DNA of 64,000 nt, from NCBI GenBank assembly GCA_022457155.1, contig JAJGOT010000355.1, positions 28,501 through 92,500 on the forward strand, given 5' to 3'. The stretch is from Cladopsammia gracilis. Taxonomy: Eukaryota; Cnidaria; Anthozoa; Scleractinia; Dendrophylliidae. Below the pieces are notes generated by a model. That model ran no database searches, was not told the DNA's origin, and saw only the letters and a program-made list of their open reading frames with translations. How positions within the stretch are numbered: position 1 is the first letter of the stretch; every line of letters starts with the position of its first letter. A program made the translations under genes and the position numbers. Shown one piece after another: positions 3,101-53,554 of the stretch.

Positions 3101-3706
3101 ATATGGGGACATTCTAAAAATTAAGTTAAAATAAATAAATAATTACTAGTAATAATTAAAAAGCTATGTACAATAGGACATCTAAACTATTTACAATAAA
3201 ATGACAGTTTAAACCTAAAAAGCAATAAAATAATAAAATTTCTTTAAAATTATTACTATATTTTAGGAAGAGCACAGGCCGCAACCTCTGCACCCATCGT
3301 CAATTAATTCACTTAAGTTAAAATCTCTTATTCGTTTTTTAAAAACATTAAGGGATTCTACGTCCCTATTATTCTTACAATAGGATCTATTATTACCCCC
3401 GACGTCAGATGTAAATACGTTTTTTACAATTCCAAAAAGTATTATATGTCTATTAAGCCTACGTAAGCTTAAGTCTTACTTTTCTGTAACAAAAATAAAC
3501 TTAAGCTAAGTGCTTAAGCTTACCTCGACTTTTTGCCTCAAGGAATTCACTTTTTGTTTCACCTTCAAATTTATGTCATTGAGTAAATTCAATGGCCCCT
3601 GACATTGCCGTATGTCTTGTATAATGTTTTGAATCTCAAACTCAATTTTTACTATTTCTTGAACGTGAATCTTCACTTGCACGGGAATTTCAATGCCGTC
3701 CGCCAT
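160..3706 (-). CDS. BNIP1: BNIP1/SEC20 vesicle transport SNARE, 5' four exons (3' end outside window)
   Basis: Four minus-strand exons join in phase: 3524-3706, 2214-2305, 1223-1327 and 160-278. The N-terminus aligns with vertebrate BNIP1/SEC20: VQVKIHVQEIVKIEFEIQ, then QDIRQCQGPL, then EQDKESDRLAIL in exon 2, LQASIRKANLESKTIIDK and RQR in exon 3, and SNITQDLMSIARMMESQVKQ in exon 4. The family is a Qb-SNARE of the ER syntaxin-18 complex, acting in Golgi-to-ER retrograde fusion and ER/mitochondrial quality control. The C-terminal SNARE remainder and tail anchor must lie left of position 1. A possible acceptor (CAG on the minus strand) ends exactly at position 1, so exon 5 may start just outside. 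The start ATG (3704-3706) reads AAAATGGCGGA. Introns carry a 280-bp palindromic element and LINE tails. Identification is firm; the exon 4 donor (gtttga) is weak. Confidence 0.88.
747..965. mobile_element. MITE-like element with CAGGGCTCGAAAA termini
   Basis: The ends are inverted copies (CAGGGCTCGAAAAAAG at left, CTTTTTTTCAAGCCCTG at right), with internal GGGCAAGT/ACTTGCCC inverted repeats. It lies in the last visible BNIP1 intron. A related fragment is near 14465-14515. Confidence 0.6.
1493..1770. mobile_element. Long palindromic (fold-back) MITE
   Basis: Two arms of about 110 nt are near-perfect reverse complements. The left arm runs from GAAGGG near 1494 and includes AGTGGAATAAAGCCCTAAGTG; the right arm ends CACTCACCCCTTC at about 1770. 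Both arms contain GCTCATGTAACAAAGGGAGA or its complement. It sits in a BNIP1 intron and has no coding capacity. Confidence 0.75.
1962..2017. repeat. Short hairpin GCAGTGGCAGAT...ATCTGCCACTGT
   Basis: A 56-bp inverted repeat with 12-nt arms and a C-rich loop. It could be a small MITE remnant. The arms are directly visible. Confidence 0.5.
2402..2478. repeat. (CATA)n microsatellite
   Basis: Tandem ACAT/CATA units with two interruptions. On the minus strand it follows a LINE-type 3' end (ATTTAAATAAAGTTTATTTATG), so it probably grew from the retrotransposon tail. Confidence 0.8.
2479..2630 (-). mobile_element. 3' end of a non-LTR retrotransposon, minus orientation
   Basis: Read on the minus strand, the segment ends in TTTAAATAAAGTTTATTTATG followed by a short-unit tail. 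The same terminal motif recurs at 3048-3060. No reverse transcriptase reading frame is present, so this would be a 5'-truncated copy. The extent to the right is uncertain. Confidence 0.45.
2651..2906. mobile_element. MITE-like element with TCTGGG(A/G)(T/C)GGATC termini
   Basis: Left end TCTGGGATGGATCCAG and right end CTAGATCCGCCCCAGA are imperfect inverted repeats. The interior holds GGGGGTTCGATCGAACCCCC and a poly-C run at about 2875-2891. Noncoding, in BNIP1 intron 1. Confidence 0.55.
3028..3480 (-). mobile_element. Truncated LINE 3' region with (ATT)n tail
   Basis: On the minus strand the segment ends with a run like ATTTAAATAAAGTTTATTATT, a typical non-LTR retrotransposon 3' end with a trinucleotide tail. 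No coding domain was found, so the copy is 5'-truncated and the left and right limits are approximate. Confidence 0.45.
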
Positions 3707-7100: not shown

Positions 7101-10100
7101 AGTCAAGGTTGTGAATGGAGTTACACATTGCAATAGTAGTTTAAAACCTGATCAAAAGAAAGCTACAAAGGAGAGAACACAGCGGAAAAGAAAGCTGAGT
7201 TCAGAAGTGGTGGTTTCAAAGTCGGTTCCAAACCATGTTGAAGCTTCAAAAATTTCTGAGCCTCCAAAGAAAAGGAAAAAACGGACTATCAAACAAAAAC
7301 AAAGAGATGAGCTGAACTCTTCTGTTGGATCAGAGCTGGAGGATATCGCTGACAAGATAGGCTTACCAGTCAAACTTAACATGACTGACAAAATGGATCT
7401 TAATTCAGACTTGCATGGCAAGTGTAACGGAGTATGCAGTAATCCTATTGCTGCTAGTCCTCCAAGAATAAACGGTGACATTTCTACATTTGGAGCAAAT
7501 GTGGAGGTATCGCCTAATACTGCGCTTAAGTTAAAGATCAGAAAAATCACACCAAAGCAAAACCAAGTTGAAGGAAAGCGCAAAAGAGGTCGGCCTCGTA
7601 AGCCACAATTTGTTATTGTCAGTGAAAGTGAAAGCGAAAAGGAAGTCGTAAGTTTCTCAGAATTGCCAAATGACTTGGAAAGTAAAGAGATTCCTGATAC
7701 AGACAAGGAGTTGGTGAGTCATGAGGAGATTACCAAAAAGAAAAAACGCATTCGAAAACCCACTAGCAAGGTGTTGAGTGCTCAAGAAGTGGCAGTACTG
7801 CCAAGAAAAAATTCGCTGGCTTTGAAAGAAAAGAAAGTTCAACCAAAAAGTAAAAAGTTAAAAGAAGTGGAAGATGTTGAGCTGAAAAGTAAAAAAGTTA
7901 AAAAGATGGAAGATGTTGAGCCTAAAAGAAGAAAGGTGAAAAGTGCGGAAGATGTTGAGCCAAAAAGTAAAAAGGTGAAAAAGATTGCAGCTGTTGAAGC
8001 AAAAACTGAAAAGGGAAAGAAGATGGAATATGTTGAGCCAAAAACTGAAAAGGGAAAAAAGGTGGAAGATGTTGAGCCAAAAAGTAAAAAGGCGAAAAAA
8101 GTGGAAGAGAAAAAAGATGAAACTTCTGAACTGAATAGTACAATTGAAATTGAAGGTAGTGTGGCAAGTGATGATACAGGCAGCATAAAGAATGGTGCAC
8201 TGCCCAAAAAAGAAAAAGATGCAGTTTGCATTGTTTGTGAACAGCAGGAAAATCTAATATTCTGTGAAGGGATTTGCGGGAATGCCTTTCATTTGGACTG
8301 TATTGGACTTTCAGTTGTTCCCAAGGGAAAGTTTATCTGTGATGAATGTGTAACTGGCAATCATTGTTGCTTTGTCTGTCGACAAACTGGAAATGTAAAA
8401 CAGTGCAGTCAACCGCTTTGTACAAAATTCTATCATGATGAATGTGTCAAGACATTTAAGACCGCAAAATTTGATGGCGATCGCTTTTCCTGTCCACTCC
8501 ATTTCTGCAGTACATGTGTTTCTAACAAGTCAGTAGTATCTAGGGGACGGATGATTCGCTGTGTACGTTGTCCGACAGCCTATCACGTCTCTGGTTGTCT
8601 TGTCGCAGGCTGTATACCAATAAGCTCTCATCTAATGGTTTGCGCAAAACACTTCTTACGTGAGAAAAACAAGGCGCACCATACTCATGTGAATGTCAAC
8701 TGGTGTTTTGTGTGTTCCATTGGCGGCACATTGATCTGTTGCGAGAGTTGCCCTGCTGCATTTCATCCTGAATGCATTAGTTATGAGGGGATTCCGGAAG
8801 GACATTTCTTTTGTAAAGATTGCACAGAAGGCAAGCAGCTTCTTTATGGAGACATTGTGTGGGTCAAGCTTGGAATGTACAGGTGATGTTAATACTCCCC
8901 TAGTCATTTTACTAGTTATTGTAAAGGGAGTGCAGGGTTTTTGTTAAGGTTTGCAATAGCAGGTACGAAATTGCGAATAACAGGGACCACTGAATGGCGG
9001 TGTAGCCATGGCAGTGTAGCCGCCATTTATTGGCATGCAGTGGAAAATCAGGCATTTTAGGAGATTTCTGACAAATTTGGGTCTTTGCTTTAACTGCTAT
9101 GAAAGAGGCAATGTGTTTATACAGTCGAACCTGTATATAGCGGCCCTGTGTTAAGCGGCCACCCTCTATTAAGTGACTAGTTTTCAAAGTCCCAATTTTT
9201 CACTCATACAAACGCTGTATTTGTTACCTGTATTAAGTGGCCACCTCTATTAAGCGGCCGCAGCCACCCTGTAGCAGTCCTATGTTTGTCTTTCTTTGTT
9301 ATTTTTACCTGTATTAAGCGGCCACCCTTTGAACGGAAACTAAGCCACATGTCATTTTATGCGGTATTTTATTGTTTAAAATGTGATCCATCGTCACTAT
9401 AAAGAAATAACATGTACAAAGCTACTGTAAGCTGATAATCGGCCGTTTAGTATCGTTAACGCTTTGCAGATGTCCGCAACGTGCTGAAAGAGACAAAATC
9501 ACGAACACAAAAAATGTTCGTTTTGAATATGCTTCACTCTTTAGCTAGAAATTCCTCTTTAATTAGTTTGTTCTTCAGCCATGTGATGGAGAATGAATCG
9601 CCTTCAAATGTATACTCGCAAGGGATTTTAACTGCACGTAACAACTATGAAATGACGGAATGAGATATTTTGCACGTGTGATCTGTAAGTCATAGAAATA
9701 CAGCACTGTATATCGTAGAAGAGTAGAGGACAATTTATTGCACAGTACTTTTACACAATGTTACGTCAATTGGCGCTGAACTTTGTTTAAAGTATTGATC
9801 GCTTAAAAGAGTGTTGATTGTCTTATTGGTCCCTTGCATGAAGTGTTTTTGTATGATACGCCATTAAAATTGACATAAGACCACACCCAGTGAGTATTTT
9901 TAGTGATCCTGTATTAAGCGGCCAGTTTCTCAAGTCCCGAGGGTGGCCGTTGTATACAGGTTCGACTGTACATTTATTTGTGCTGCTTCATAAAGCCTAA
10001 ATTTAGCATTATCATGAACTTGAAATGAGCTACACAATATACAACGTGTGAAAGTGAAAGTCCCGGTGTCCCGGCTCTAACAAAAACCCTGGGAGTGTAC

Positions 10101-19100: not shown

Positions 19101-21763
19101 GTGCATGAAACTCTGACAGCAACATGAAACGGAAATGACAACGTTTTAAAGGGGCGCTGCCCTGCCAAAATATGTTATCGCAACTTAGTTGGATAAAAAG
19201 GTTCTATACAGCTAAACAAACGCAGTAGTTTGGAGATAAAATGCAGGATTGCAAGGATTGAAATGGATTACAATACTTCAACCAGGACAGTGTTCCTTTA
19301 AAGGCCCACTGTCACCCAGTCGGCTTCGCGGTCGTTTGTTTTTGTTTTCAAATGACGAGCTCGCTCATGATTGGCTCTTTCAAGAATTTTCGACTGCGTT
19401 AAATTCGCAATGCATTTTGGGTGACCATGGACCTTTAAATTCATGCCCTAGTCGGAGTGAAATGAGAAATTAGTGATGCAATCTATCCCTGAATCCATCT
19501 TACTTTTCTACCAGGGAACGAAAAGAAGAAGTGTCACTGTGGAGCCAAAAACTGCAGCAGTTTCCTTGGAGTGAGACCCAAAAACCAGATTCAAGAGGAC
19601 AAATCTAAAAAAGCAGGAGATAAAAGGAAGAAGAAGAGAATTAAGAAAGCTGTTGTCAAAGAAGGTACATAATGCATTCTTTAGATAAGTAGAATAGATT
19701 AATTGAAGAAAATGTTGAGAAGATCTTCACAGGAAAGTTCAACTTAATGAGTTTCATTTAAATATCACACTTCAGGATTTCACCCACATTGTACCTTATT
19801 GCAAATAATTTTCATGACATCAAATTTTTCAGTCTTTTAAATTTGCAAAAATTTGATGTCAAGAAAGAAAATGCATAATTATTAAATGCATAATGCATAA
19901 TTTTTAATTATGAATAGGAAATTTGCCACAATTTATCCCAATTCGTAAAAATTGAGTGTTGCAAAATGTCGCCCTGCTTCCAAAATTGCAAAGTTAAACT
20001 GTCATGAAAATATTTTTCAATAAGGTACCACGTCCTTAAAGCCTTTTTTTTATGTTGCGCTTTAGCATTTTATCCAGACTCAAAAGTTAGACTACGAAAT
20101 AAGGGAAAGATCACTGGGTCATTTGAATGTTTAGATTTTTATATGAGTTTCTGTTGTACAATGTATTTCTTGTGGTTATTTGTTCCCTTTTCTGTCGTAA
20201 TTTGCTATGTAACATTCTTCATTGCAACTCTTTCTAAATAAAACTAAATGATAATAGCAAGATAATAAGGATCAATTCAGAACAAACTGAATGCGCTTTT
20301 TAACATTACATCGTCTGCTAGCAAGCTTCAACAGTTAAAAAATAGTTTATTGAATTGCACAGTAAAAAATAGTTAAACATTTTTGAAGCTTAATCATCTT
20401 AAGCCATCTAAAGCCTAAACGCAATGCAAAGCTACTATTGTTATAACTTAAACTAAATTTTAAGCTTATGACGGCTACTTCAAAATTTTTCATTTCTCTA
20501 CCTTTAAACCGAATAATTGCAATATAGAATTTGCTCACATTGAATATTAATGTTTCTTCAAGTTGCCCTTTTAGTGATAAAGGTTAAAAAACTTGTAACT
20601 GAAGCAAGCATTTCTTGTTTGGCTTCAGATACGCCGGTGTCCACCGAACATCGCAAGCGTCCCCCTCCTCTTCCTGCCGTTCATCATGAAGTTTTTAATG
20701 AGCATGGCACAAGTTGTAACACCTCTGACCAGGCAATAAAGCTCACAGGCACCTCTCCTCTCAATAGCGCATTGCCGTGGACTTATAGCCCAATACAGCC
20801 AGGCTTGACCTTAAGCAATAATGTCTGAAAAAGGTGCGCTGATTATGACTTAAACACTACATTATTAAAAGACAGTTGTAAACTAGTAAAAGTAGTTAAA
20901 AAAAACTAAGTGTAAATGTAACGGTAAACTATTTTGAAATGAAGAGTGTTGCCACAGACATGATTAAATCTGTTTTCTTATTTTCTTTTGCGCTAACTTG
21001 AAAATGCAAGCTCCACTTTTTCAAGTTTGTCCAATTGTATTCAAGACTACTGTACAGTTACTGCGCCTTTCAATAACATGCGGAATTTGAAATTCAAATC
21101 TCCACCAACAGTTGCGTTATTCCCTGCCGTCAATCATAATTAATACAAAAGCCAACGGACCATGTAAAAAAGAAACAAACAAAATGGATCGAAATCTACC
21201 AATCATAATGCACGGACGTGACCTTTTGACCTCATTGAAGTGAAGATCTGTTTCCTGAAAGGTAAGCTAAGATGATTGACGGCAGTGTAAAACGCAGCTG
21301 TTGGTGGAAATTTGAATTTCAAATTCCGCATGTTATTGAAAGGCGCAGTAATTCTATGTCTTCAAGAAGAAAAGCACTTGCTAACTCAGTTTCCTCTCTC
21401 GTTTCAGTTCATGAGGACGACTGCTTCATCTGTGGTGATGGCGGAGAGCTTCTGATGTGTGACAAGGGAGGCTGTGCAAAGTGCTACCACAAGGGCTGCC
21501 TGGGCGGGGAGGTCAACATCCGCGGCAAGTGGATCTGCCCGTGGCACTTTTGTGACGACTGTGGAAAGTGGGCCAATGTTCTGTGTTCAGAGTGTCCAAA
21601 TTCCTACTGTAGAGGTCATGCCGCTGGCCAAATCAATGAATTAGGGAATGGAATCCTGGTTTGCTGCGACCATATTTTGACAAGGAAAAAGACATTGAAA
21701 AAACAACGTGTTGATGAGGAACAGGGCAGTGGAGAAACATCCAGCACTGACATGACTGATTAA
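4173..21763 (+). CDS. NSD: NSD-family histone H3 lysine-36 methyltransferase
   Basis: Eight exons splice in phase: 4173-4467, 6803-8882, 14170-14378, 15221-15333, 17947-18202, 18672-18974, 19515-19664 and 21408-21763, giving about 1253 aa. Domains in order: PWWP1 (about 36-103, [10 protein letters not shown]), an AT-hook-like KRKRGRPRK (about 355), a Lys-rich repeat block (about 447-537), a PHD cluster (about 566-785), PWWP2 (about 787-860, [14 protein letters not shown]), AWS (about 917-957), SET (about 960-1085, with [20 protein letters not shown] and LTFDY), post-SET ([14 protein letters not shown]) and a C-terminal PHD/C5HCH (about 1138-1200). This order matches NSD1/2/3; the length is nearest NSD2 or NSD3, but no HMG box was seen. 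The expected activity is H3K36 mono- and dimethylation in the nucleus. The start is the first ATG after the divergent promoter. The paralogue is not assigned. Confidence 0.93.
6376..6765. mobile_element. Repeat family copy A (partner at 58345-58650)
   Basis: It shares long stretches with 58345-58650, including AATTATGGAGACATGTA, TAACTTTTGAGTCTGT, GTGTGACCATTCAAATGAAA and CTTTTGCATGG. The ends resemble inverted TTAACCCTT(A)...CCCAAGAG signals. A hairpin is nested inside it. Confidence 0.6.
6578..6646. repeat. Near-perfect 69-bp hairpin
   Basis: AAGTGCCTATCATCCCTAG at left is answered by its complement at right, with arms of about 33 nt meeting at ATTTTCAGATTCTGAAAAT. Only one or two mismatches are visible, so it is either recent or functional. 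Confidence 0.75.
9120..9970. mobile_element. 851-bp nonautonomous DNA transposon, TACAGTCGAACCTGTATA termini
   Basis: The inverted ends are TACAGTCGAACCTGTATA and its complement TATACAGGTTCGACTGTA. The subterminal motif TATTAAGCGGCCAC occurs several times just inside the left end and once inside the right end. No transposase reading frame. It lies in NSD intron 2. Confidence 0.75.
10400..10560 (+). mobile_element. Degenerate tRNA-like SINE fragment
   Basis: A possible A box (TGGTGCAGTGGCGAGG) is followed about 45 nt later by a weak B-box-like AGTTTAAATTCC. Both boxes are degraded. Low-confidence call by shape only. Confidence 0.3.
11512..11847. mobile_element. MITE with TACCATAAT termini
   Basis: Left end TACCATAAT and right end ATTATGGTA are inverted. 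Inner GGCGTTTATTGG/GACGCTTATTAA blocks also pair loosely, and a G-rich tract lies near 11786-11809. Length 336 bp, noncoding. Confidence 0.65.
12053..13800. mobile_element. 1.75-kb nonautonomous TIR element
   Basis: The terminal inverted repeat is about 50 bp: TACAGTACTGCTCAGAGATA followed by AGCAAACCATCAAACG at left, complemented at 13763-13800. Inside are repeated TCAGAATTATTTTT-like blocks (about 12365-12790) and a GCGTTAGCGTTTGTG inverted pair near 13680-13725. No intact transposase was found, so movement would need a partner in trans. Confidence 0.8.
13947..14025. mobile_element. Mini element with TCTCTAAGACGGACA inverted repeats
   Basis: Left CAACTCTCTATAAGCCGGACA and right TGTCCGTCTTAGAGAGAGTTG are inverted copies about 30 bp apart. 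The same CTAAGACGGACA motif forms the ends of the element at 40660-41159. Confidence 0.65.
14594..14882. mobile_element. MITE with CAGGGTT(C)(G/A)TAC termini and GTCATGGAA repeats
   Basis: The ends are CAGGGTTCGTACGG and GTATGAACCCTG. The inside repeats GGAAAGTCATGGAATT several times, which gives a misleading open frame. It lies in the NSD intron between exons 3 and 4. Confidence 0.7.
14945..15160. mobile_element. MITE with TTAACCCTTT termini
   Basis: Left TTAACCCTTTAAAACCCTAA and right TTAGGGGTCAAAGGGTTAA are inverted. An inner GTGATCATTTTCTTT... TGATCATCTAAGGAGAA symmetry continues the fold. It ends about 60 bp upstream of NSD exon 4. Confidence 0.65.
15490..15800 (-). mobile_element. LINE-like 3' tail fragment
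   Basis: The minus strand reads towards TTTAATAAAAGATTGAAATTG, resembling a non-LTR 3' end with a short repeat tail. AATAAATA runs follow. No coding capacity; boundaries are vague. Confidence 0.3.
16644..17055. mobile_element. 412-bp long palindromic element
   Basis: The whole segment folds back. Outer ends are ATAGACCAATATCA/TGATATTGGTCTAT, the middle pairs AATATATTTAGTTTA with TAAATATATTTTCA, and the centre pairs TACAAAGAAATGTATGG with CCATACATTTCTTTGTA. The loop is the GGCAAAGATTGCC region. Noncoding. Confidence 0.8.
17280..17930 (+). mobile_element. SINE-derived sequence upstream of NSD exon 5
   Basis: The segment at about 17815-17870 (GGGAAACTTTTCTCCACATTG followed by GCTCTCTCTG) resembles the body of the SINE at 37060-37370 (AAACTTTATTCCACATTGTC). 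CCAGGGGCAT/GGGGCCAT-type blocks repeat. Limits are approximate. Confidence 0.35.
19297..19439. mobile_element. MITE with TTTAAAGGCCCACTGTCACCC termini
   Basis: Left TTTAAAGGCCCACTGTCACC pairs with right GGGTGACCATGGACCTTTAAA, with mismatches. The 143-bp element is noncoding and lies in the NSD intron before exon 7. Confidence 0.65.
20629..20828 (+). CDS. Possible alternative last exon of the NSD gene
   Basis: After the acceptor TTGGCTTCAG the sequence continues in the exact phase left by NSD exon 7 (G + AT = Asp) and stays open for 65 codons to a stop at 20826-20828. The tail starts [20 protein letters not shown], is Pro/Ser/Thr-rich, and matches no domain I know. Spliced from exon 7 it would replace the terminal PHD finger, giving a shorter isoform of about 1200 aa. 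No in-phase donor with good consensus was seen, so it reads as terminal rather than cassette. Supported only by phase and codon-like composition. Confidence 0.4.
21058..21351. mobile_element. 294-bp palindromic MITE next to the last NSD exon
   Basis: Ends TTACTGCGCCTTTCAATAAC and its complement at about 21332-21351; the arms continue through GCGGAATTTGAAATTCAAAT and CCAACAG, then GACGGCA near the centre. It ends 56 bp before the exon start at 21408, so it may supply part of the branch-point region. Confidence 0.8.
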
Positions 21764-29452: not shown

Positions 29453-32400
29453 TTAAAGTCCTTTGTTGTAGTAAAGCGTTGACTCTTTGGTTTTCATCTG
29501 AATTTCAGACTCGAGTTCAGACGGTGAAACCTGAAATATCAAAAACAAAAACAACAACAAAATTACATTCATTTTTACCGATACTTTGTTGTTTTTCCCA
29601 AACTCTGGCGTAAGAGAAAATTGTTTTTAGCAAACTTAAAACTTGGCTTCTCATTTCACGTATCTCGCATTTGACGTTTGCTGTAACTTCAGTGTGTGTA
29701 ACCTCGTTTCACAGGACCCACTCTCTTCCTCCCTCCGAAGAATGAACCCTGAGAACGAGGAGGGAGGTTTGTAGAAGTTTGCTGTGTGAAAACACGAGAT
29801 TGCCAAAGTTTTGTTTGCCGTGTGAAGGCACCTTTTCGCTAAACAGTTTACGTCACAGATGACGTCGCTAAGCTAGCCTGCGAATACAGCCGCCTCTCAT
29901 CGCTCCTGGCCGCTAGGGGCGCTCTCGCGACGCCCCTAGCGGCCGGGAGAGGTGAGAGGCGGCAGTATTCGCTGGTTATCGCTAAGCATAAACTGTCCTT
30001 TACATTATGATCCGCTTACCTGGGATGTCTGACGGAAGAGAGCGATAGTGAGTGGAAGTGCAAACCCAAACGCAGCAACACAGACCAGCGCTTGGACAGG
30101 AAGGTGAAGTCTAGGACGGGACATCATAAATTTCGTTCTGTGTTGAGAGAAAAAAAAACAAGTTGTACTTAATTACTGTTTTGGAGGTGCGTCAAACTTC
30201 AGAGCGGCAGGTCAATGGTAAATTGAACTATCGACACTTTGCACTTTCGCCTGTTACCTTTCTAAAAGCTGCATGGCAAACGGTGGAATGACCAAAACAG
30301 GAAGCGGGAGAAGCACTCGAGTTAAAGTTGTTTCAAACACCGCCTAAAAACAAAAAAAAACCGGAATTACTGATAGAGCAGTTTTTAATTGAGTGTCGAA
30401 AGTAATTACACAATTGCTTTGGTTTTGCATTGCTGCGCTTTGTGATTGGCTAAAAAATCTCGCGCCACTTTCTCGACCAATCAGAAGTAAAACCAAAACC
30501 AATCGTGACTTGCTCGCACGCGTTTTCCCGCGCTTGCGCCGGCGATATGTATTTGCTTCGAGCTCTGATTGGTTCATTGGATTGTTTACGACTGCTGTGA
30601 TTGGTCAGAGTAATTACTTTGGTTTTGGTTTTACGCCACTCAAATGAAAACTGCTCTAATAAGGTTTATAACTGCGATTGAGCCTGAACAAAAATTAATC
30701 TCATTACGGTGTATTTTTAAAAACTAACAATTGACCACTCCCAACATAACATATGGTTGTTTTCGGCAATCTGAAACTGTCGCTACATTTCATCGTGTTT
30801 TACGTGAAAAAATACTCGCGATTTTTGTAGTTTTTTTGACAGTCTTCTCCAGGAGTTTCTGCGCCCGAGCTGATTTTGACAGTTCCTCGCTGTTGTGCGA
30901 GCGGAGACGCGCATGACTGGAGACACGCATGGTGGGAAACAAGTGTGGAAAACACACGAAAAGGGAGACGCGCAACAGCATATACAGTTTTCAATCTCAA
31001 TTTTACCTTTTGAGCTGCTATTTTTGATATTCCAACAACATTCCCATCTTCATCTTTCACTTCAATTCCTGTGAACAACTCATGATTTCTCATAAGGACC
31101 ACGTTACAGATGTTTGCAGTAGCTAGAAAACGAGATACAACAAAACAAGATGAAGAAAAAGAAAGCACGCCAGATCTTTATTTGGGTATTAATCAGTTAT
31201 TAATCTACTAGAGGGCTCAAACCATCACTAGAGCACAACGGCAACTTGAGATCTCGAGAGTTCGAATTGGCGGAATTACAGGTGTCCTATATATACCTGC
31301 CAACTTTTTCAGTTATAGGCGTGAGAATATTTTCGTGGGAGTGCCAGGATTTCCGAAGCCGACCCGACCAAATCCGATGAGAACCCGATCTGTTCCGAAG
31401 ATGTCCCAAGATGTTCGAAGAATTCGGAAGTTTCCAAGAGTCCGTTTAATAACATCCAGCTGAAATTGAGTGTAATGTTAGAACGATAAAAATCTACAAA
31501 AAAGTGCCATATTTTCATGAAAGTAACTATATTTTTAATTGGATCATGCGATCAATTAAGGCTGATAGCTCAAATCTGAAAGTCAGGCGTGAGAAATTGC
31601 TCCATAGGCGTGAGTAGGCGTGAGACCGGAGATTTGGACTCGCAGGCGTGAGACTCACGCCTAAGGCGTGAGACTTGGCAGGTATAGTGTCCTCAAGGCG
31701 AGAGTTGAAGAAATTGGTTTCAAGTTAGCACGAGCTGCAACTGGTTAGCTGCAGCTGGTCACCTTTTCCCGCGCTTGGCGCTGGCGGCAATTTCTCCCGC
31801 GGTTAGCGCTAACTACACGTTTTCCCGCGCTTGGTGCTGACTACACCTTTTTCCCGCGCTTGGCACTGGGTCACGGACATTTTCCTGCGCTTGGTACAAG
31901 CTACGTTTTTCCCGCGCTTTCCACTATAACGTACCAGTAGCGGGGTAGGCCACTAATCGTTGAAGAAGAGCTTTCACAGATGGATTAGAAATCCTCGCTC
32001 TTTTAACTATTGTAGTGAGACCAAGCTGAGAAGAAAGAAGATCTGAAGGTTAGAAAATTAACCATTTTCCACTGTTGCTACTAAACTAACTAGTGTTTAT
32101 GTAGCGGTTTGGCTCGCAGGGACCGGGTGACTTGTATGCATGTAAGAAGGAAAATCATTAAACTTTGGATGTCGTTGTCAGCGGGACATGTGGCACGAAT
32201 TCTCTCTAAAAATACCATGCTGATCGGGGGAATGCGGGCTTGGGACTAAACAGTTGTAAGATGAAATGAATAAACTTACAGCAATTGTCAAAGCACTAGA
32301 AACAGCTCCAAAGTAACTCATTAAAAACCGGCTTGTTGGTGTTGGCTAAAAAGACAAGTAAGCAAATTACTTTTTTCAGTAATCAGTAAGCTTAAATATT

Positions 32401-41946: not shown

Positions 41947-44872
41947 CAATACGCAAACTATGCCGCAAATAAAATTCTGTCATACATTATATTACATGAA
42001 TTAAGGCTTCATAGTGGTCTGCCTGCACACGCAGGTTTTCGGGCGCGAGCGCCAACACCCCCAAAAGCACATGTTGCGTGCAGGCTGAGCAGGCTGAATA
42101 TTGGTTCACGAGGGTAGGTGACGTCCCGGGTGATGTGGGTTACTTAATTATTTTCATTCTCCAAGAGTTTTTCCGTCCAAGCTGAGAAAGGGAAATTTCC
42201 CGTCATGTCGTGGCACTTTCGAAATAAAATCTGCTAAATTAGCGTTTTTGTGGCGTCATGCCCTGTCAAACTGGAACCGGAGGGCAAACGGATGAAATAT
42301 TACTGCTCTCGAACTCGCCACAGTCGGAAAGTTACGTCAAAAACGTACATTTAGTATACCTATCCTCTTTTTAGAAAGTCCTTAAAAGGCATTGGTGATA
42401 TAACCGTGAGTTCCGGGCCTAGAACTGACAGGTTTCATGCACTGCGACAATACCAGTCGCGTCAAGGCAGACTGCATCACAATTTCAAACAGCGCGCGCA
42501 CATATATGAAAGCACTGCTCGATGTAAAAAATCTCGAAATTTCGTCCACAGACTGACTATACGCCCCACTGACTTTTCGTCATATTTTTTTCCGGTTTGT
42601 TTTGCATGAGTAGCTGGAAAAGTGGTGGCAAGCAAGGGCAAGCCTAACTTGACATGATCATTATCTAATCATTGTATTCTGATATTTATTTCCAGTAAAA
42701 CTGGCGTTATTCATGACCTAAATGACTCTTCATCATGAATACCCATATTTCGCATGTTTTGTTTAGAATTATAGTTTAAAAAGCTGCTGATACATCAATC
42801 GTCATTGATGATTTTCCTTGTTTTAACACAACATTTATCTGCAGCTGGATTTAGTAACAATATGTGTACTCAGATCATACCAACATAACTGATTCATTGA
42901 CAGCAATAACAAATAAATGCTGAATATATAGGACCGAAATGATCATGGATGCGAATTGCAGATGAAAACGTCTTGACGAGTGAAATATTCTTGCAATTAT
43001 GTTAACACTTTGCAGTTGCAAAGAATGCTCGATTTAAGACGACAATTCCGGCAGGCCTGTATTCAGTCAGGACCGCTTCATTGACCTTATGATATACGGG
43101 TGCAGAGGAGCTCAGTACTATGCCAGTACAGCTGGTCAATTTGTACTGTATCTTATTTACTTTCATTTCTACTGAGTAGAGGTAAGACAATAAAAATTAA
43201 GCTTGAAAAATGATTTGTACAAAATGAAACAAGATAACTTTGGCCTTTTCGTGCCTTTGGCTAGCTGGCATTGACCTTTCATTTAAATAATTAAACGAGT
43301 TTTGCATAATGACTGATAACTATCCGTATTATCGCACAAGCTAGTTAGATAGATGTTAGATAGCACTGAAAAGAAATCAGTAATCTTCCCAAAAAAAGGA
43401 GATGAAGATGTAATTTTTCAGTAGAGAAGGACACTGTGTCAGACCGGCTGCTGACTCATGAGTTTATTTGGAAATCACGAGATCGGCTGATCGCTCGAGT
43501 CAGCGATCACGTGACATCGGCTAAAATAAATATCGGATTGAAACTTTTAAATGCCAAATTGAAGTCAAGGTAAAATACGTAACAATAATTTGCAATACAC
43601 ACCATATGTTACTGATGTTGATAAGGAAAATCGCGATTGCGTGAAATGTTGACAATTTCTTGCTTCGATAAGTTCTTTTGAAATTAGACGAGCCATGCCA
43701 GAGACAAGCCTGAACACAACAAGCCAATAATGAGAAATGACAGCAATTTGAATGACAAAAATAGAAAAAAAAAAACAATAGCCCCTTGAAGTGCAAATGT
43801 CCCGCTGGTAGGGATACTGCCGATCTGTCGCAAAAATAAAAATACGAAATGAACAACATTTCACTATCTAAAAAAAAAAACACGAAATGCGAAAGATGTA
43901 CGATGTTTTACATTTTTACCTGTCATTATCAAACGAAGGTAAACCTTTTGTGATCGAGTTGACAATAATATTGCTGGCTCGTCACTTCTCAAGGACCAGT
44001 GATGACAACATATAGCAATGCAGAAACTGACACGGTCTCTTGAGCTAAAAACCTGCACGTTTCAAGTACGTTTTGCATTTAAAGGGCTTTACTAAAGTTG
44101 CCACCGCTTATCGTCGTTTTCCTATCAAGGTTTGCATGACTGCACATCTAACATTTTCATCTTTATCTTTACCTCAACCCAGTGGATGTTTAATTCTTTA
44201 GTCTCAGGGTTGTTTTCTATAATACTTCCTGAGATTTTATTTTTTGTTTCCTGATCTTTGTCTTATAGCTTCTTATCAAAGATCATGATAACATGTCCAT
44301 TACATTTCCGATGTACAATCTAAAATGTTGAAATATAAACACGGCAGACCTCACATCTGGGGAATATATTGTATTGAAAATAACAACGTTTACTCCATTT
44401 ACGCGGGTGCATTATTTCAAGGATTGTCACCTTTACGCAAGCCGAACACAAAATATAACTGGGCAAAGCCGCCGAAAATAAACACGAATTTCAGTTTTCA
44501 GTTAAGGAGGCATTTTTCAACGTTTTCACAAATTCAATCCAGGTCTTAACAGTTCAAATATTGATACAAAAAAAGATCGGATCATAATCCTGTCAAGAAA
44601 TTCGTTTATAACGGTTTTCTAAACTGAGAAAAACGTTATAAAAACGCGGGCTTATACAGTTTTCTTTTTACATTATGTATAAACCAGTCCCAAGGGAGTG
44701 TTTTTGCAATTAAAACTCGCCAGTATTATCAAACGCGATTGGCACGGAAAGATCGAGCGTGCATATTATTTGTTCCTTTATTTTACGTAAATCAGTGGTA
44801 AATGTACTTGCGTATTTGAAAAGAGTGGGCGATATATTTGGACAAGTTTCTACGTGCCTCAACTAGCCCGGG

Positions 44873-45299
44873 TATGCCTGCCTATATGTAGCAATATTTA
44901 ATCCTTGTTGAAATATATTTGATTTAAACTTTGTTATCTGTAAATTTAAACTTTTATCTGTAAATTTAAACTTTTATCTGTAAATTTAAACTTTGTTATC
45001 TGTAAATTTAAACTTGCTTATCTGTAAATTTAAACTTTGTTATCTGTATATTTAAACTTTTATACTAAATTTCATTTAATCTTTATTTAAAATTATATGT
45101 AAACTTTCAGTTTTCTTATTTAAACTTTGTTTAAAATGCATTTAAACTTCGTTCAAATGTCGTTTAAACTTCGATGATAAATTTCGTTTGAACTTCCAAG
45201 TTTATTTAATCTTCTTTCAATTTTCATTTAATCCACGGTAAATTTCATTTAATCTTCCTGGGGCGAGCTCGGCCAGAGTATAGCCTCGCTTTCGAGCTG
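44873..45299 (+). repeat. Left terminal inverted repeat
   Basis: 427 bp. Order from outside: TATGCCTGCC tip, six 20-22-nt units built on TTATCTGTAAATTTAAACTT (44930-45060), then AT-rich (T)TTAAACTT/ATTTAATC-rich sequence, then a GC-rich inner edge with GGGGCGAGCTCGGCCAGAGT. Homology to the other end resumes at GCCATTTTGTTTT just inside. Confidence 0.92.
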
Positions 45300-45398
45300 C
45301 GAAGACAGCCATTTTGTTTTAGTATCTCAGAAGTATGTGAAGCTTCGAATTCCAAGCTTCTCCTTTCAGATTCATTCGGGTTCTTTCGTTCGAGCGAA

Positions 45399-46907
45399 AT
45401 GGCAGACGATGTGGAAACGTTTTTAAAGTTTGTGTTAGAGAGATCGGAGGAAATAGGCTTACTTCAAGAACACCAAGATGTTTCTGAGAACTTTCTTAGT
45501 ACACTGCTAACACATGTGGATTTACTTGGAAAGACAGTGCAATTTTTGCATGAAATTGGAAACATTTCTTTACTGGATCCGGACGATTCCAAGAAATGGA
45601 AAGATTTAGAGAAAGTTTACTCGGAAATTGAAAAGGAGTTTGTTAGTCTGTATAATCACTATCATCACGAATCCACTCTCACTAAATTATGCGAGTTACC
45701 ATTGTCAGTTGTGGACACAAAACGGCCTGGCAGGCCTAGTTACTGTATTCCAAAGGAGGTCTTGGTAGAATTACGTGGGCTGAATTTCTCCTGGTGCAAG
45801 ATCTCTCAAATGTTTGGAGTGTCAAGGTGGACTGTTATGCGCCGCGTCCAAGAGTATGATCTGACTGGTTTGCAGCAGTTTTCCAATATTTCAGACGACA
45901 GAATTGATGATATAATCAGGGACTATATGTCACGTCACGGTTCCACCACTGGTGAGCCACTTATGTCAGGCTACTTTAGGTCACTGGGTTTGCATATTCA
46001 GAGAAGTAGAATAAGAGCTGCAATAAATAGAGTGGACCCCCGTAATACTGCCTTAAGATGGGGTGCTCTGGTATCAAGGAGGAGATACTTTGTACCATGG
46101 CCAAATTCTCTGTGGCACATTGATGGACATCACTCTCTCATAAGATGGAAGTTTGTGATTCATGGTTGTTGTGATGGCAAATCTAGGAAAATAATGTTTT
46201 TGAGATGCAGCACCAATAACCTGGCAGAGACAGTCCTGGAACTTTTCAAGGATGCTATCAAGAACAATCGTGACTTATGGCCCTCGCGTATTCGTGTAGA
46301 TTATGGTGTGGAGAATGTTTTGATTTGTGATGAAATGGTTGCCTACCGGGGAGAGGGGCGGGGTAGTTTCATTGCTGGATCATCCTCAAGCAATCAACGC
46401 ATAGAGAGACTTTGGCGGGATGTATTTAGATGTGTCTGTCATTTCTTTTATTTTACCTTCTATGCAATGGAGCAAACAGCAATTCTGGATATTGAAAATC
46501 CCATTCACATGTTTGCATTACATTTAGTTTTTACTGCTAGAATCAACACCACTCTAGATGAATTTGCCACAATGTATAACAATCATAGACTTTCAACTGA
46601 ACATGGTTGGACTCCCAATCAGATATGGCTGAATGGAGTGCTAGATGAAAACAATCCATTAAATTCAAATGGTGGCCTGGATGATTCTGTTGTTGATCAA
46701 TTTTACGGTGAAGATCCCGAGGGTCCACATCCTCAACCAGATGATGAAGGCATTGTTGTTCCACCTGTCCAAATACCTCACCACGAAGAAATATCAGATT
46801 TTGTTCTTCATCACATTTCTGTTAACAGACCATCGAGTCAAGCTGGAATTGACATTTACACTACAGTTCTTTCACTGATTGTACAAAAACTTGAAGAATA
46901 TATGTGA
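45399..46907 (+). CDS. Integrase-like DDE transposase
   Basis: One uninterrupted 502-aa frame starting at a good ATG (GCGAAATGGCAG), 100 bp inside the left TIR. The N-terminal third is helical and acidic. A resolvase/IS-type helix-turn-helix follows (about 118-160, SWCKISQMFGVSRWTVMRR). The catalytic core resembles the rve integrase fold: D242 in LWHIDGHHSLIRW, D301 in RIRVDYGVENV and E336 in NQRIERLWRDV, with 34 residues between the last two. HGCCDGKSRKIMFLRCSTNN lies between the first two. A Pro/Asp/Glu-rich C-terminus completes it. Proteins of this type are common as uncharacterised 'integrase core' genes in corals and fish. The expected role is cutting and joining at the TIRs. No frameshift or stop, so activity is possible. 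AATAAA follows at 47297. Confidence 0.88.
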   Translation: MADDVETFLKFVLERSEEIGLLQEHQDVSENFLSTLLTHVDLLGKTVQFLHEIGNISLLDPDDSKKWKDLEKVYSEIEKEFVSLYNHYHHESTLTKLCELPLSVVDTKRPGRPSYCIPKEVLVELRGLNFSWCKISQMFGVSRWTVMRRVQEYDLTGLQQFSNISDDRIDDIIRDYMSRHGSTTGEPLMSGYFRSLGLHIQRSRIRAAINRVDPRNTALRWGALVSRRRYFVPWPNSLWHIDGHHSLIRWKFVIHGCCDGKSRKIMFLRCSTNNLAETVLELFKDAIKNNRDLWPSRIRVDYGVENVLICDEMVAYRGEGRGSFIAGSSSSNQRIERLWRDVFRCVCHFFYFTFYAMEQTAILDIENPIHMFALHLVFTARINTTLDEFATMYNNHRLSTEHGWTPNQIWLNGVLDENNPLNSNGGLDDSVVDQFYGEDPEGPHPQPDDEGIVVPPVQIPHHEEISDFVLHHISVNRPSSQAGIDIYTTVLSLIVQKLEEYM

Positions 46908-47845
46908 TTCACTAATCTCGAACTTTAACAATGTAAAGCCTGGTTTTGTTTCTATCAAATGGTCAGAAAAGGATGTACACATTCTAATGGAAAGAACAAT
47001 CGCGTTCAGAACTGCAGTATATGGATTAGTTAACATGAATATTGTTTGAAATTTTTGTAGTAAACAATTAACTGGCCTTGATCTCGAGGCTTTAAGTTGT
47101 GAACATTACATGAGGCCTGTATGTTTGCTATGAAATTGTAGTACCTGAAACATATTCCTCTCGACAGTCATTCTGTGACGATATGTGTTGATTTACTGTA
47201 ATTCGAGAGGTTGTTTTATAGATTATGTATGACTAGACACGTGACGAGTTCACGGGTGATTTTGTATGGCAATGTGACCGAGTTTGCGGATGATACAATA
47301 AATTAAGGATTACAATCAAAAGCTTGGCTTTATTGGATGCGCCATTCGATAACCATAACACATTCCTCTCTCTTTTTTTGAGAATGTTATTGCAAATACT
47401 TAGGGAAAGGATTTTTCATGAAATCCTTCTAATCAGTTTAGAACAATTAAACAGCAATAAAAAAAATCCCGCCTTTTTAAAATGTAAGCTTGAACATTTG
47501 CATGTTATCTTAATTTTTGACCCTCTCTCGTCTGATAAAATTAGTGCTTCAAATGGCCAAGATTTTTTGTTGCATTGTAGGGAACATGTCACATTCAACT
47601 AATTGATGGGAATGGTCTGTTAAGCCTCTGAATAGATTATTTATATTTTGAATCCAGCATATACTTGTGTGGCTTGCGCTAGATCCTAATTATGTCAGCC
47701 CAATATCTGAACTCACTTGAACATTAAGAGTGTTGACACAAAAACACCTCCGGAAACGTAAACTTTAATCTAATACATTAATAAAATATTAATAGACCAT
47801 AAATTTTAAGAGTCTATCTTGATAGTAAAGTTAAGTAATAACATA

Positions 47846-48138
47846 TAGAGCAGTTTTCGATTAGGTGGCGAAAATAATTTTGCGATTACATTTGTTTTGC
47901 ATTGCTATGCTTTGTGGTTAGCAAAAAAATATTGCACCACCTTCTTAACCAAACAGAAGTAAAACCAAAACCAACTGCGAGTTATGACTAATTAGCACAC
48001 GTTTTATTGAGCCAAGCACACTACATGTATTGCTTTGAGTTCTGAATGGTTTGTTGAGCTGCCTGTGTCTGTTGTGATTGGCCAAAAAATCACTCTGGGT
48101 TTTGTTTGATGATACCACTCAATCTAAAACCACTCTAG
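47846..48138. mobile_element. Diverged GAGCAGTTTT MITE nested in the transposon
   Basis: It aligns along its length with 30374-30658 (TAGAGCAGTTTTCGATTAGG, TTTTGCATTGCTATGCTTTG, AGAAGTAAAACCAAAACCAA), with many substitutions. The right end CACTCTA is decayed. Confidence 0.7.
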
Positions 48139-48830
48139 ACCATACTATCACAACATAATTTTAACAAAATTCAATGGCTAGGAAACGTTTGCAGCTATTT
48201 CCTAAAGTTGACTGACACTGGTTTTCAAACTGTTTATGTGAACAGATATTGAAAAACAACATAATTATGACTTCAATCAACTGAACTTGAACTAAACTAG
48301 ATTAAATGTAAAGCAGTAAAATATAATAACAAGCTAAGTAGCCTGGCTGTATTTAAAGAGTGAACACAATAATCCATCCATCCATCCATCTTGTAAATTT
48401 CAGGGTTAGGGAGGGTACTCCTTTATTTAAGCTCCATAGCTTAAAACCCTAAACCTATTTTTGACCTGACTTCAAAATCTACAAACTTTATTATGCCTTC
48501 AAAGACTAAAATCTACACAAACATTAACTGTTTTTATGGTCCAACCCTTGTAGTGGTTCAAAAAGTGTAAACATTGTAGGTTGAGCTCTAGATGGCACAA
48601 TCCCAACCAAAATGCTGAGTGGCACCCCACACCCACATCACTGGGGATTCAAATTGGTTCATGGCTACATTTAAAACCTAACCAACAATAATAACAGTAA
48701 CACTAACAATATTTTAATACTATTTGCAAGATAAATATACAAGAAGCACAAAATTTCCACAGGGCCCCGTAGTCTTGTTGCCCTAGTTTATGTTGTTTGG
48801 GATCCTGGGAGTTTTAAGGAGATACCATAG

Positions 48831-48850
48831 TCCCCCCCCCCCCCCCCCCC
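48831..48850. repeat. Poly-C homopolymer
   Basis: A run of about 20 C in the transposon centre; the exact length is uncertain. Confidence 0.7.
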
Positions 48851-49889
48851 ATCCTGTAAACAGGAAATGAAAAAGGCCCCAACGGTAACCTGCTCAACGT
48901 CAATTGTACCAGGGTGTTTTTTTTCTTCTGGTTTTGTCATTGCATAATTAAATGTCAAAGTCAAATCAAAGTGTTTTTGGATTCTCACAGTAAGTGGACT
49001 GATTGACAACAGAAATCAAGTCTGAAACAAGTGCGAAACTGTCCAATTTACAACTGCTTTTCAATTATGGCCATATACTGTACTGTAAGATCACCAACAA
49101 CTTTGAAATTGAAAAACTGGAACTGGAACAGTGGCTTCCGACAATGTAAAAAGTAATACAAAAACTTGAGGCGGATGACTAAATAGTTAGGCCTAATGTC
49201 CATATCATTTATTCATCCACCGCCACCCCCGAGTAAGCTTGCTCCCAGGCTACGAGCAATATGTTGGATATAATAATAGGAACACCTGAGTGCAGTGAGA
49301 GGTCATGAGACTTAAAATCACAGAACGTACCACAAGGCGAAAATATTGCGTCTCCAAGTACCCGTCATTACACACAATGCTATAATTATTGGACAGCTGC
49401 ACTTAAATGGGTTCCTTTGTTTGTGTGTGAATCTAACAGGAACTGCTGTCTTTTATTCACAAGAAAGGTTAAGCCTTTTTTTTTAAATTTTGTTATAGTG
49501 ATGATTACAGTCAAGTTTTCCACAAGCAGACCTCCTAGGGACCACATTAGAAGAGATGTCCATTTATGGGAAGTTAAAAATGTAGTGTTTCTTCATGTAT
49601 TTGGTATTATCCAATACCCCACAATAAACTTTGTTTTAGAGGGCCATTTCGCATAAACAATTGTTTTCATTTTGTTTTTACTTGGGAACACTTGGGAGAG
49701 CATTTAGGAATTTCTTTCTTTGGTAAATTGGTCAAATTTGGTTATTACTGGTGATGTACAACAGGTACTACCACTAATGTATGTCTTTTCACCCCCACAT
49801 TATTAGTACTTATCTGCTGTAATCTTCACATTTCAATATTTCAAAATTTCAAAATACAATGTAACTTGTTAAACTTAGAAAATGCAATA

Positions 49890-52634
49890 TTAAACTGTTC
49901 CAAAATGAGTAGATGCAAATGCAACATCATACACCTGAAAAATGCTGTCTTCCTCTGGCAGTGGGGATGTTAAGGTGCCAATGGGCAGAACTAAAACATT
50001 ACTACAGGTGTGTGCTGTTGGTAAGTACTCGTAAGGAATGTGCTCTGATGACTCTCCAACCTGTTAAAAAATTAGTATTAAATGCTTTTTCAGTGGCTGC
50101 TGATAAATGAGAAAATAACTATAAATTATGATATATATCATTGTTGTATTTCAATTTTATCATTGGTTCAATTTTTATTTTCTTTTGTTTCATACTCATC
50201 ATCATACATTTCAATAATGTCACAAAAACAAGCGAAAATAAAAACAGAACCAGAGATAAAATTGAACCACAAAATATACACTGCAGTCAAACCTTCCTTT
50301 GCAGCCACCTCTCATGTGTTGATATTAAATTTAAATATTAAAGAATCAATCTATGATCAAGCAACTGCCTCATGATGTCTCAAAACAAAGCTGAATCTTA
50401 TTCAATTTGAAACATGAGCCAAGGTCAAGTTGTTCACTGAAGCAGAAATGTCACGCAACTTTGGATTCAAGGTCAGAAAATTGGTGTGCAAACGAATAAA
50501 TCATTCACCTTTTATGTTAATTCATGCCTGGACATGGACTGGGTAACTCACTTTGGATAACCTCAATGCCCAGTCTTTTGTATCAGTGTTTTGGGTATCC
50601 GTACGGGGGTACCCATTTTACTGTTGTGTTATTTATTCGTGCCTTTCTAAGATTTCTATAAAGGGAGTTGTACAGAAAATTAATATTAATCTTGGACCCA
50701 TGAAATCCAAGACTTAGCCCTCAAATTTTGGGATCCACCCTCCTCCCAATGGCTGCAACACTGTATTCTGGTGCTTGAGATGCAAGTGGGAAAACATTGA
50801 GAACATTAATATCATTCCCACATTCAATACGCCATAGTTAAAAAAAATATAAAGCACTACATGTATGTTTAGTATTTTAATGGCACACCTTAGGTTCTTC
50901 TTGAGACACAAATGTGATCGACGGGTGCAGGGCAAATCCGAGTACTGGTTCCTCTGAAGCTCCAGTGACAAATACCAAAATAGAACTTAAAGTTATTGGC
51001 TCTCTCCGCCCACTAGCAACTTGTCGCACATATTTAACAAACAAAGCATAAACTTTCTTTTCTTTGACAATTGCTGTGGATCCCTCTTGAGAGAATTTGG
51101 GGGCCAACAAGTTGAGGACCATTCTTGCAACCAGCGTGTGGTTTCCTGGTCTAAGCAAGTGAAGTAAAATTGGAACCTCTTGAATGACTTCTGCTAGTCC
51201 AAATACATCCAATCCTCGCTGTATATTGGCAATGCAACTTTCTGTTGATGATTTGGCCAGTTTCTCAATGATATCAATTGGCATGAAAGTTGGTAATTGT
51301 CCATTTTGCAGAAGTGCAATGCCCAACATTATGCCTACGTAGTAATAGTCATTTGACAAGAATTCCCGGAGTCCATTGTCAAAGTACTTTACTTTTATAG
51401 CAGCATTCATGAGGCGAATCCATTCTTTCCTCGGTCCACCAAGATCCTTCGCTTTCTCTCCCATGAAATCAACTTCAAAAGTGATGGTGAAATTATCTAT
51501 GCATGCCAGCTCTGCAAATGTGGTATTCAAAATGTCAAGTCTATCTATGCAGATATAATTGGTATTTCCTTCTTGTATTTCAGATTGGCTTGTGACATCT
51601 AACTCTCGTCCTCGAATAAGTTTTTTCTGCAAGAAGCGCAAAATTTCCACAGGATCATTCAACCCTTGATTGTGAATTTCACTCACCAGCTGCTTTGCTG
51701 TTGGCACTAGATCAGCAGATGTACGTCCACTTGTAGCCTCCAACAGATGCTGAACTGGCTGGTTTTCAATCACATCACAACTCTGAATTTCTCCTTCCAC
51801 TTTCTCATATACAGCTGCTGCTCCATCTGGTTTAATTTCCTCTTCAACTGGAGATGAGACATCAGTTGAACTGGCATTTGCTGTGCCAGAAAGCTCATGG
51901 TTTGCAGGCTTTGGATCACATGTGCTGTCGAATGCTGATTTCAGTAAATCGTCATCACTTTCCATTTCTCCGTTGTACACAAACTCGAATCCTTGTTTGA
52001 CTTTAACATACAGCAATCCCTGGCCTGCCATCTTTTTTACTACTGCATAATTGTACTCAGTCCCAGGCCCCAATTGAAGCGTAGAAATTGCCTTGTGCCT
52101 AACCTTCACGAAGTCAAAATCATTTGAGCCCAGCAGCGGAAATTTGGCCTTCAACGATTCTTTTATTGCATTTCGGATTGTGTTTTCGTCATCACCTTCT
52201 TCCCACAACAACATACCGCTAGCAATTATTGAATCCCATTTCAGATAGCGAACTTCTTCCAGGCCATCGGCCTCCAGGCATCGCAGCAGAGCAAATTCCA
52301 TTGCTTTTTTTTCTTTTTTTGCCTTAGCTTTAGCTGGCTTGCCACGCTGATAGGGACCGTCCGCGGCTCTCAACCGTTCCTGCCTATTTAGTCGTCGACA
52401 TAAACCTGATGAACTGCTTTCTCTTAGCATCCCCTGAGCTCGTCTAAGCGTGTCCTGCAAAGTTCGCGTTGTCAACACTGAGGAATTCGATGCAATGGCA
52501 GAATCAGCAACATTTGCAACGCTGTTAGTGTTTGCAGCAGTGCTGGGAGCAGTGTTGGCGCTGTTTGGGGAGACAAGAAGTCTTGACGCTTCGCTGAGCA
52601 AAGAAGAAACCCTCCCTTTGATTTCTTCGTCCAT
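49890..52634 (-). CDS. HECT-domain E3 ubiquitin ligase carried by the transposon
   Basis: Two minus-strand exons: 50889-52634 and 49890-50060, joined in phase 0 (donor AAG|gtgtgc, acceptor tttaacag), giving 638 aa. The N-terminal half is low-complexity Ala/Ser/Asn with a basic patch (KPAKAKAKKEKKAMEF), then a conserved-looking block (FDFVKVRHKAISTLQLGPG). The HECT domain fills about 370-638: VDFMGEKAKDLGGPRKEW, YYVGIMLGIALLQNGQLPTF, and in exon 2 the C-lobe with YLPTAHTCSNVLVLP; catalytic Cys is C601 (codon 50004-50006). The C-terminus FASTHFGTV is the usual HECT ending. It resembles the G2E3-like HECT proteins of fish and cnidarians. The first ATG lies about 50 bp inside the right TIR. Why a transposon carries a ligase is not known to me; it might modify host repair or the transposase. 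No inactivating change was seen. Confidence 0.88.
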
Positions 52635-52682
52635 TTTCAAAGCCCGCCAAAACAAAATGGCCGTCTTCTCTTCTGGCCGTCT

Positions 52683-53067
52683 CAGCTCGAAAGCGAGGCT
52701 ATACTCTGGCCGAGCTCGCCCCAGGAAGATTAAATGAAATTTACCGTGGATTAAATGAAAATTGAAAGAAGATTAAATAAACTTGGAAGTTCAAACGAAA
52801 TTTATCATCGAAGTTTAAACGACATTTGAACGAAGTTTAAATGCATTTTAAACAAAGTTTAAATAAGAAAACTGAAAGTTTACATATAATTTTAAATAAA
52901 GATTAAATGAAATTTAGTATAAAAGTTTAAATATACAGATAACAAAGTTTAAATTTACAGATAAGCAAGTTTAAATTTACAGATAAAAGTTTAAATTTAC
53001 AGATAACAAAGTTTAAATCAAATATATTTCAACAAGGATTAAATATTGCTACATATAGGCAGGCATA
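52683..53067 (-). repeat. Right terminal inverted repeat
   Basis: 385 bp, reverse complement of the left TIR but with four instead of six TTATCTGTAAATTTAAACTT-type units. The inner edge again carries the GC-rich GGCGAGCTCGGCCAGAGTAT block, now facing the HECT gene. Confidence 0.92.
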
Positions 53068-53554
53068 TTTGACACATCTATAATTATATTCCTTCATCCC
53101 AAAACAAAAATTGGTGAGAGCAAAATTCCATGCTTTTGCCTCGTTGAAACATTGTACACGCTACGAAAACTCAATTGCTCGATCAGTAAAGCTTTTTGTT
53201 ATGTACACCAAAATTTCTGCATGTCCTCGTGAAAGCTGTTTTTTGTGTTGGTTTTCCAGTTGCTAAAGCTCTTCCCACGTGGAACACCAAAGCAACCATG
53301 TGAATTTACACGTTAAATTTCGCCGCTTTTGATTGGCTCACTTCTAACCTTCTAGTCCCTCGTGATTTTTTCTTTTGTCTTTCAACCAATCAGATCGTTC
53401 AAATTGGCGTGTGATTTCCATGACGTTTGGGCGCGTGACATATATCTTGTTTTCGTTTTGATAATATTTACAATCCTCGTACAGCACATGCAGGGAAAAA
53501 ATTTTCTCGTGAATTTCGTTTCTGGCTCGCGAAATATTCACTTAAAGAAAGGCC
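53068..53554 (+). promoter_or_regulatory. MXD promoter region with E-box and CCAAT boxes
   Basis: The 487 bp between the transposon end and the MXD start hold a perfect MYC/MAX/MXD-type E-box CACGTG (53276-53281), ATTGG at 53332-53336 and CCAAT at 53386-53390. E-boxes are the binding site of this very family, so feedback control is possible but unproven. Confidence 0.5.

Follow-up and report, generated by a model that had tools for sequence, protein, structure and literature searches.

A convergent HECT ubiquitin ligase gene accompanies the transposase gene in an IS3EU/GingerRoot-like transposon of the coral Cladopsammia gracilis

Organization of the locus

The window analyzed here is a stretch of 64,000 nt from Cladopsammia gracilis (contig JAJGOT010000355.1, positions 28,501-92,500, forward strand), and all coordinates below are window positions. 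It holds a DNA transposon of 8,195 bp (44873-53067) that is bounded by terminal inverted repeats (TIRs) and encloses two inward-facing genes, one encoding an integrase-type DDE transposase and the other a HECT ubiquitin ligase (E3). The initial annotation had described two intact genes in this orientation between paired TIRs of 427 and 385 bp. Both frames and the convergent order were recovered and the TIRs are present, with measured lengths of 430 and 388 bp. They differ solely by a 42-bp gap of repeat units and are otherwise identical. The element is composed of the following features:

44873..45302, forward strand: left TIR, 430 bp, beginning TATGCCTGCC
44922..45060, forward strand: tandem units of 22 bp within the left TIR, 6.5 copies
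45243..45275, forward strand: 33-bp box at the inner TIR end, upstream of the transposase gene; its 22-bp core recurs in a second element family (family 2, see below)
45399..46907, forward strand: transposase gene, integrase-type DDE, rva_4; 502 amino acids (aa) plus stop, codons 45399-46904, single open frame
46908..49889, no strand: spacer separating the convergent genes, containing two unassigned frames of 102 and 115 codons
50060-49890, reverse strand: HECT exon 2, 56 codons plus stop, carrying the catalytic Cys601
50888-50061, reverse strand: predicted HECT intron, GT..AG, with junctions AAG/GT...CAG/G
52634-50889, reverse strand: HECT exon 1, 582 codons, comprising an N-terminal tail, a predicted ubiquitin-like domain, the HECT N-lobe and part of the C-lobe (domains from the model of relative P0127)
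52680..53067, reverse strand: right TIR, 388 bp, equal to the left TIR minus 42 bp of repeat units
52707..52739, reverse strand: the same 33-bp box, upstream of the HECT gene
52922..53018, reverse strand: tandem units of 22 bp within the right TIR, 4.5 copies

The encoded proteins

The transposase matches the Pfam family rva_4 (1.8e-72), and the triad D242, D301 and E336, on which its initial description as a DDE integrase-like protein was based, is intact. An intasome fold was found for this protein, and its profile gave no sequence match to solved structures.

The HECT protein comprises 638 aa when read over the two exons, the junction being predicted from the nucleotide sequence. HECT is its sole Pfam match at E ≤ 1 (4.4e-9; 36.8 bits, curated cut-off 23.9), and Cys601, which the initial annotation had already named as the catalytic Cys, lies in an LPTAHTC motif of the C-lobe. 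The HECT N-lobe fold is seen in the model of relative P0127, in which a ubiquitin-like domain is also predicted. In G2E3, PHD/RING-type domains precede the HECT domain. No domains of this type were found in the 638 aa, and the protein would differ from G2E3 in having the ubiquitin-like domain predicted for P0127 instead.

Sister copies and target duplications

A search of the genome (878 Mb, 1469 contigs) with the TIR returned 44 matches. The closest copy, L009, lies on another contig, is 99.99% identical to the window element over 8.2 kb, with one single-base difference in a C-run, and is flanked by the 6-bp target duplication CTTGTG. Because L009 differs by a single base and carries this duplication, the window element has moved recently, as the initial annotation had suggested. 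A shorter copy of 5.4 kb, L010, encodes a transposase identical to that of the window and has its own duplication, CCTCAA.

Exact 6-bp duplications were found at seven of the 12 loci with both ends located (L009, L010, L012, L017, L018, L020 and L032). Visual inspection gave the ends of L029 and the family-2 duplications, and a script also recovered the duplications of L017, L018 and L020. L021 was left out of this count as a duplicate, since its left flank is common to L021 and L017. These two family-2 loci on contig C1464 appear to represent a segmental duplication of one insertion. In L011, L012, L014 and L015, the element is shortened and carries, in place of its HECT end, an inverted copy of the transposase start (about residues 1-104), so that the two ends look as though they had been made alike.

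Element families and gene pairing in the genome

Family 2 consists of L017-L020, L021 and the partial loci L027 and L028. Its transposase (L018) is 49% identical to that of the window over its length, and its HECT protein shows 33-66% identity by segment, with the Cys-bearing C-lobe likewise on a separate exon in a similar layout. Its TIRs contain tandem units of 25 bp, and its termini read TATGGCACG. Some copies have broken frames, and none of L017-L020 has both genes open. L032 represents a third family, with TIRs of 283 bp (98.9% identical) and the duplication ATGGAC. The termini are TATGCC..GGCATA in family 1, TATGGC..GCCATA in family 2 and TATGGG..CCCATA in L032; the right end of L019 (family 2) lacks the TA. 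Wherever the C-lobe exon was inspected (family 2, L029 and L032), the catalytic Cys is present. Across 28 compared loci, some of them mutually overlapping, the 22-bp box core is matched exactly in 22, whereas L012, L014, L016, L025, L026 and L008 lack an exact match; L009, L010, L011 and L017-L020 each contain it in two copies of opposite orientation.

For the genome-wide analysis of gene pairing, 85 of 1012 transposase candidates and 75 of 184 HECT candidates were scored and merged into 83 transposase and 54 HECT places. Twenty-six of the 54 HECT places lie at most 12 kb from a scored transposase, where uniform placement expects 0.12, and the orientation is convergent in all 26. HECT sequence occurs at each of the best 21 transposase places (one of them, on C1192, truncated) and at 22 of the best 27, versus 4 of the other 56. 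Contig pairs such as C586/C683 and C720/C1374 have nearly equal scores. Both haplotypes may therefore be present in the assembly, in which case independent insertions are fewer than the places counted.

Four transposase places without a scored HECT gene were inspected. L029 and L032 do contain a diverged HECT gene that the query had missed, and the two transposases share just 32-39% identity with that of the window. At L031, a long terminal repeat (LTR) retrotransposon follows the transposase, with no HECT gene in the fetched stretch. L030 holds a transposase relative, a different second open frame with a low-complexity arginine-glycine tract and, farther on, a tnp2-type transposase (326-1915, 2984-3616 and 7340-9001). 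In the degraded locus L034 (3337-5415), transposase and HECT fragments are fused or stand side by side.

The proposal that the integrase-like and HECT genes are two halves of one mobile element is supported by these data: both genes lie between matching TIRs in L009 (family 1), L017-L020 (family 2) and L032 (third family). Neither of the contrary outcomes named in advance was seen, i.e. integrase copies that never hold the HECT gene, or a single-copy host HECT gene captured only here.

Relatives in other genomes and co-inheritance

A public protein set yielded 1058 transposase relatives (120 of them listed) and 93 HECT proteins. For 11 of the 93 HECT clusters, the longest contig is exactly equal in size to that of a transposase cluster, with 118 listed clusters comparable, whereas control comparisons with sizes shifted by 1 to 50 gave 0.74 on average and at most 3. 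A twelfth pair (P0048/P0234) was found by eye. On larger contigs, an equal size does not prove that both proteins belong to one element. Every organism named among the matches listed is a cnidarian (Paramuricea, Dendronephthya, Montipora, Porites, Stylophora, Actinia, Hydra and others), as is each one named in a third protein search (74 matches). Viral contigs scanned with both alignments gave 12 and 17 pattern matches, none encoding a relative.

Agreement between paired-gene phylogenies had been put forward as a further check, and it was obtained from the distances and not from the trees, which are poorly resolved. Transposase and HECT distances are correlated over 16 pairs (r=0.77, p=0.0001; rank 0.69, p=0.0003), over 14 pairs without L029 and L032, where the HECT gene is incomplete (r=0.51, p=0.002; rank 0.39, p=0.017), and over 13 pairs (r=0.50, p=0.0043; rank 0.36, p=0.034). 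In each tree, five of the 10 inner branches are open, and the two trees agree with good support on a single two-member group (c19932 and c56420). The window groups firmly with c975231 in the HECT tree and falls in an open three-member group in the transposase tree; family 2 groups firmly with c8448 in the transposase tree, a grouping that the HECT tree leaves unresolved.

Other observations in the window

Part of the spacer (47845-47974, 130 bp) is 81% identical to window 30373-30502 and is perhaps an older small repeat. A direct repeat of 24 nt (96% identical) links the spacer (48740-48763) and the HECT coding sequence (51630-51653). Outside the element, an open frame at 21266-21760 shows a PHD-finger-like pattern by eye and is probably an exon of a host gene.

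Discussion

We interpret the window element as an autonomous two-gene, cut-and-paste transposon of the IS3EU/GingerRoot type whose HECT ligase most likely serves transposition in trans, a reading to which we assign a probability of roughly 0.8. Its two-gene structure, its mobility and its retained catalytic residues are established at the level of sequence, and even diverged families have retained the ligase beside the transposase. The transposase would bind the repeat-rich TIRs, cut at the TA..TA ends and insert with a 6-bp duplication, in line with the TIRs, the triad and the duplications around sister copies. The TIRs probably act as two equal promoters that drive both genes inward, because near-identical TIRs reach both gene starts and the same box lies upstream of each. 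The HECT ligase may ubiquitinate the transposase-DNA complex, leading to its unloading and to repair of the junctions, or alternatively a host factor acting against the element; we rank the complex slightly ahead. That the ligase targets host silencing or another restriction (a chromatin, repair or small-RNA factor) and not the transposase complex is a possibility to which we give somewhat under even odds. It is suggested by analogy with fungal IS3EU elements in which a TET/JBP dioxygenase and an alpha-kinase accompany the transposase, the TET being interpreted in the abstract of PMC12730594 as an escape from methylation, but the sequence favours no one target over another. More broadly, we lean towards the view that a deep lineage of cnidarian integrase-type transposons has co-inherited from its ancestor a separate HECT gene, driven by the TIR promoter that also serves the transposase, and thereby carries its own ubiquitin machinery to control the transpososome or the host.

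It is exceedingly improbable that an integrase-like transposon merely landed beside host HECT genes. HECT-like places are numerous, and 28 of the 54 lack a transposase among the scored matches, but both genes lie within matching TIRs with the duplications outside, a second full copy exists (L009), the 26 pairs compare with 0.12 expected, and all of them are convergent; chance juxtaposition was therefore rejected. Moreover, six of these 28 places, distributed over five contigs, were inspected: transposase sequence is present near the place on C955, both places on C382 and the one on C1349, the contig ends at the place on C1119, and the 9.9 kb inspected on C1140 contain none. We also consider it unlikely that the ligase is a passenger, i.e. 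a HECT gene captured long ago and tolerated without helping the element. A passenger would be in keeping with the ratio of nonsynonymous to synonymous substitution rates (dN/dS) of the HECT gene, near 0.5-1.1 among recent family-2 copies, with the duplication around L010, which lacks a full HECT gene, and with the broken frames in L017-L020; yet the pairing and the convergent order persist at two loci with strongly diverged transposases (L029 and L032), the distances of the two proteins correlate, and the catalytic Cys is retained in family 2, L029 and L032.

Several observations weigh against a mobile element served by its own ligase. The window copy lacks a target duplication (CCCGGG at 44867-44872 on the left versus TTTGAC at 53068-53073 on the right), although it is near-identical to L009, which has one; an assembly fault, or rearrangement of one flank after insertion, could account for this. 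Duplications are inexact at L019 and L029, and no exact one was found at L011 and L016. L010 combines an intact transposase and a duplication with a HECT gene lost after residue 207, and no HECT gene was found at the L030 locus. The C-lobe of the P0127 model is of low confidence, and the C-lobe motif is missing from 106 of 141 HECT relatives, many of which we read, without checking them singly, as single-frame predictions that end before the last exon. Finally, dN/dS among four family-2 copies is 0.52-1.13 for HECT (calculated over two exon-1 segments, with just 9-18 changes per pair) versus 0.16-0.43 for the transposase, and does not show recent constraint on the ligase. Since individual copies can lose a gene whose product acts in trans, the HECT values neither exclude nor support service to the element.

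If the ligase does serve the element, ubiquitination joins the tools carried by DNA transposons, and integrase and HECT genes annotated apart in coral genomes are parts of one mobile element. The young pair of near-identical copies would then provide material for testing the role of a transposon-borne ligase.

Comparison with known systems

In MuDR, two convergent genes are likewise read from near-identical long TIRs, and the second gene does not encode a transposase. MuDR differs from the window element in its unrelated transposase, its 9-bp duplications and its second gene, which is not a ligase.

The IS3EU/GingerRoot superfamily (Kojima and Bao 2023; PMC10045372, main text) is defined by an integrase-like DDE transposase, TIRs, TA..TA ends and 6-bp duplications. 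Window-type elements share these features, with a transposase of this type (rva_4 match, triad, intasome fold), TA..TA termini and target duplications of 6 bp, and fit the superfamily by its stated features. They add a convergent HECT gene and long TIRs with tandem units to what that text describes, in which neither 'HECT' nor 'ubiquitin' occurs. Two genes and a tie to ubiquitin ligation also characterize the RAG transposon, vertebrate RAG1 having ubiquitin ligase activity; according to PMC4411706, that ligase is a RING domain inside RAG1, of the Transib superfamily, whereas the window element has a separate HECT gene.

Fungal IS3EU elements, with ends TAYGG..CCRTA, carry alpha-kinase and TET/JBP dioxygenase genes beside the transposase (PMC12730594), so accessory enzymes are already known in the IS3EU group. 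They resemble the window element in that the accessory gene is opposite in orientation to the transposase, and differ in their hosts (fungi versus a cnidarian) and in the enzymes, a kinase and a dioxygenase there and a HECT ligase here. Neither 'HECT' nor 'ubiquitin' occurs in the main text of PMC12730594, nor HECT in that of PMC4255032, and the literature searched, largely at the level of listings and without a query for Repbase Reports by name, yielded no description of a HECT gene in transposons of this type. An IS3EU-type element with accessory enzymes is therefore known, and what appears to be new, as judged from the print record searched, is a HECT ligase as the accessory gene.
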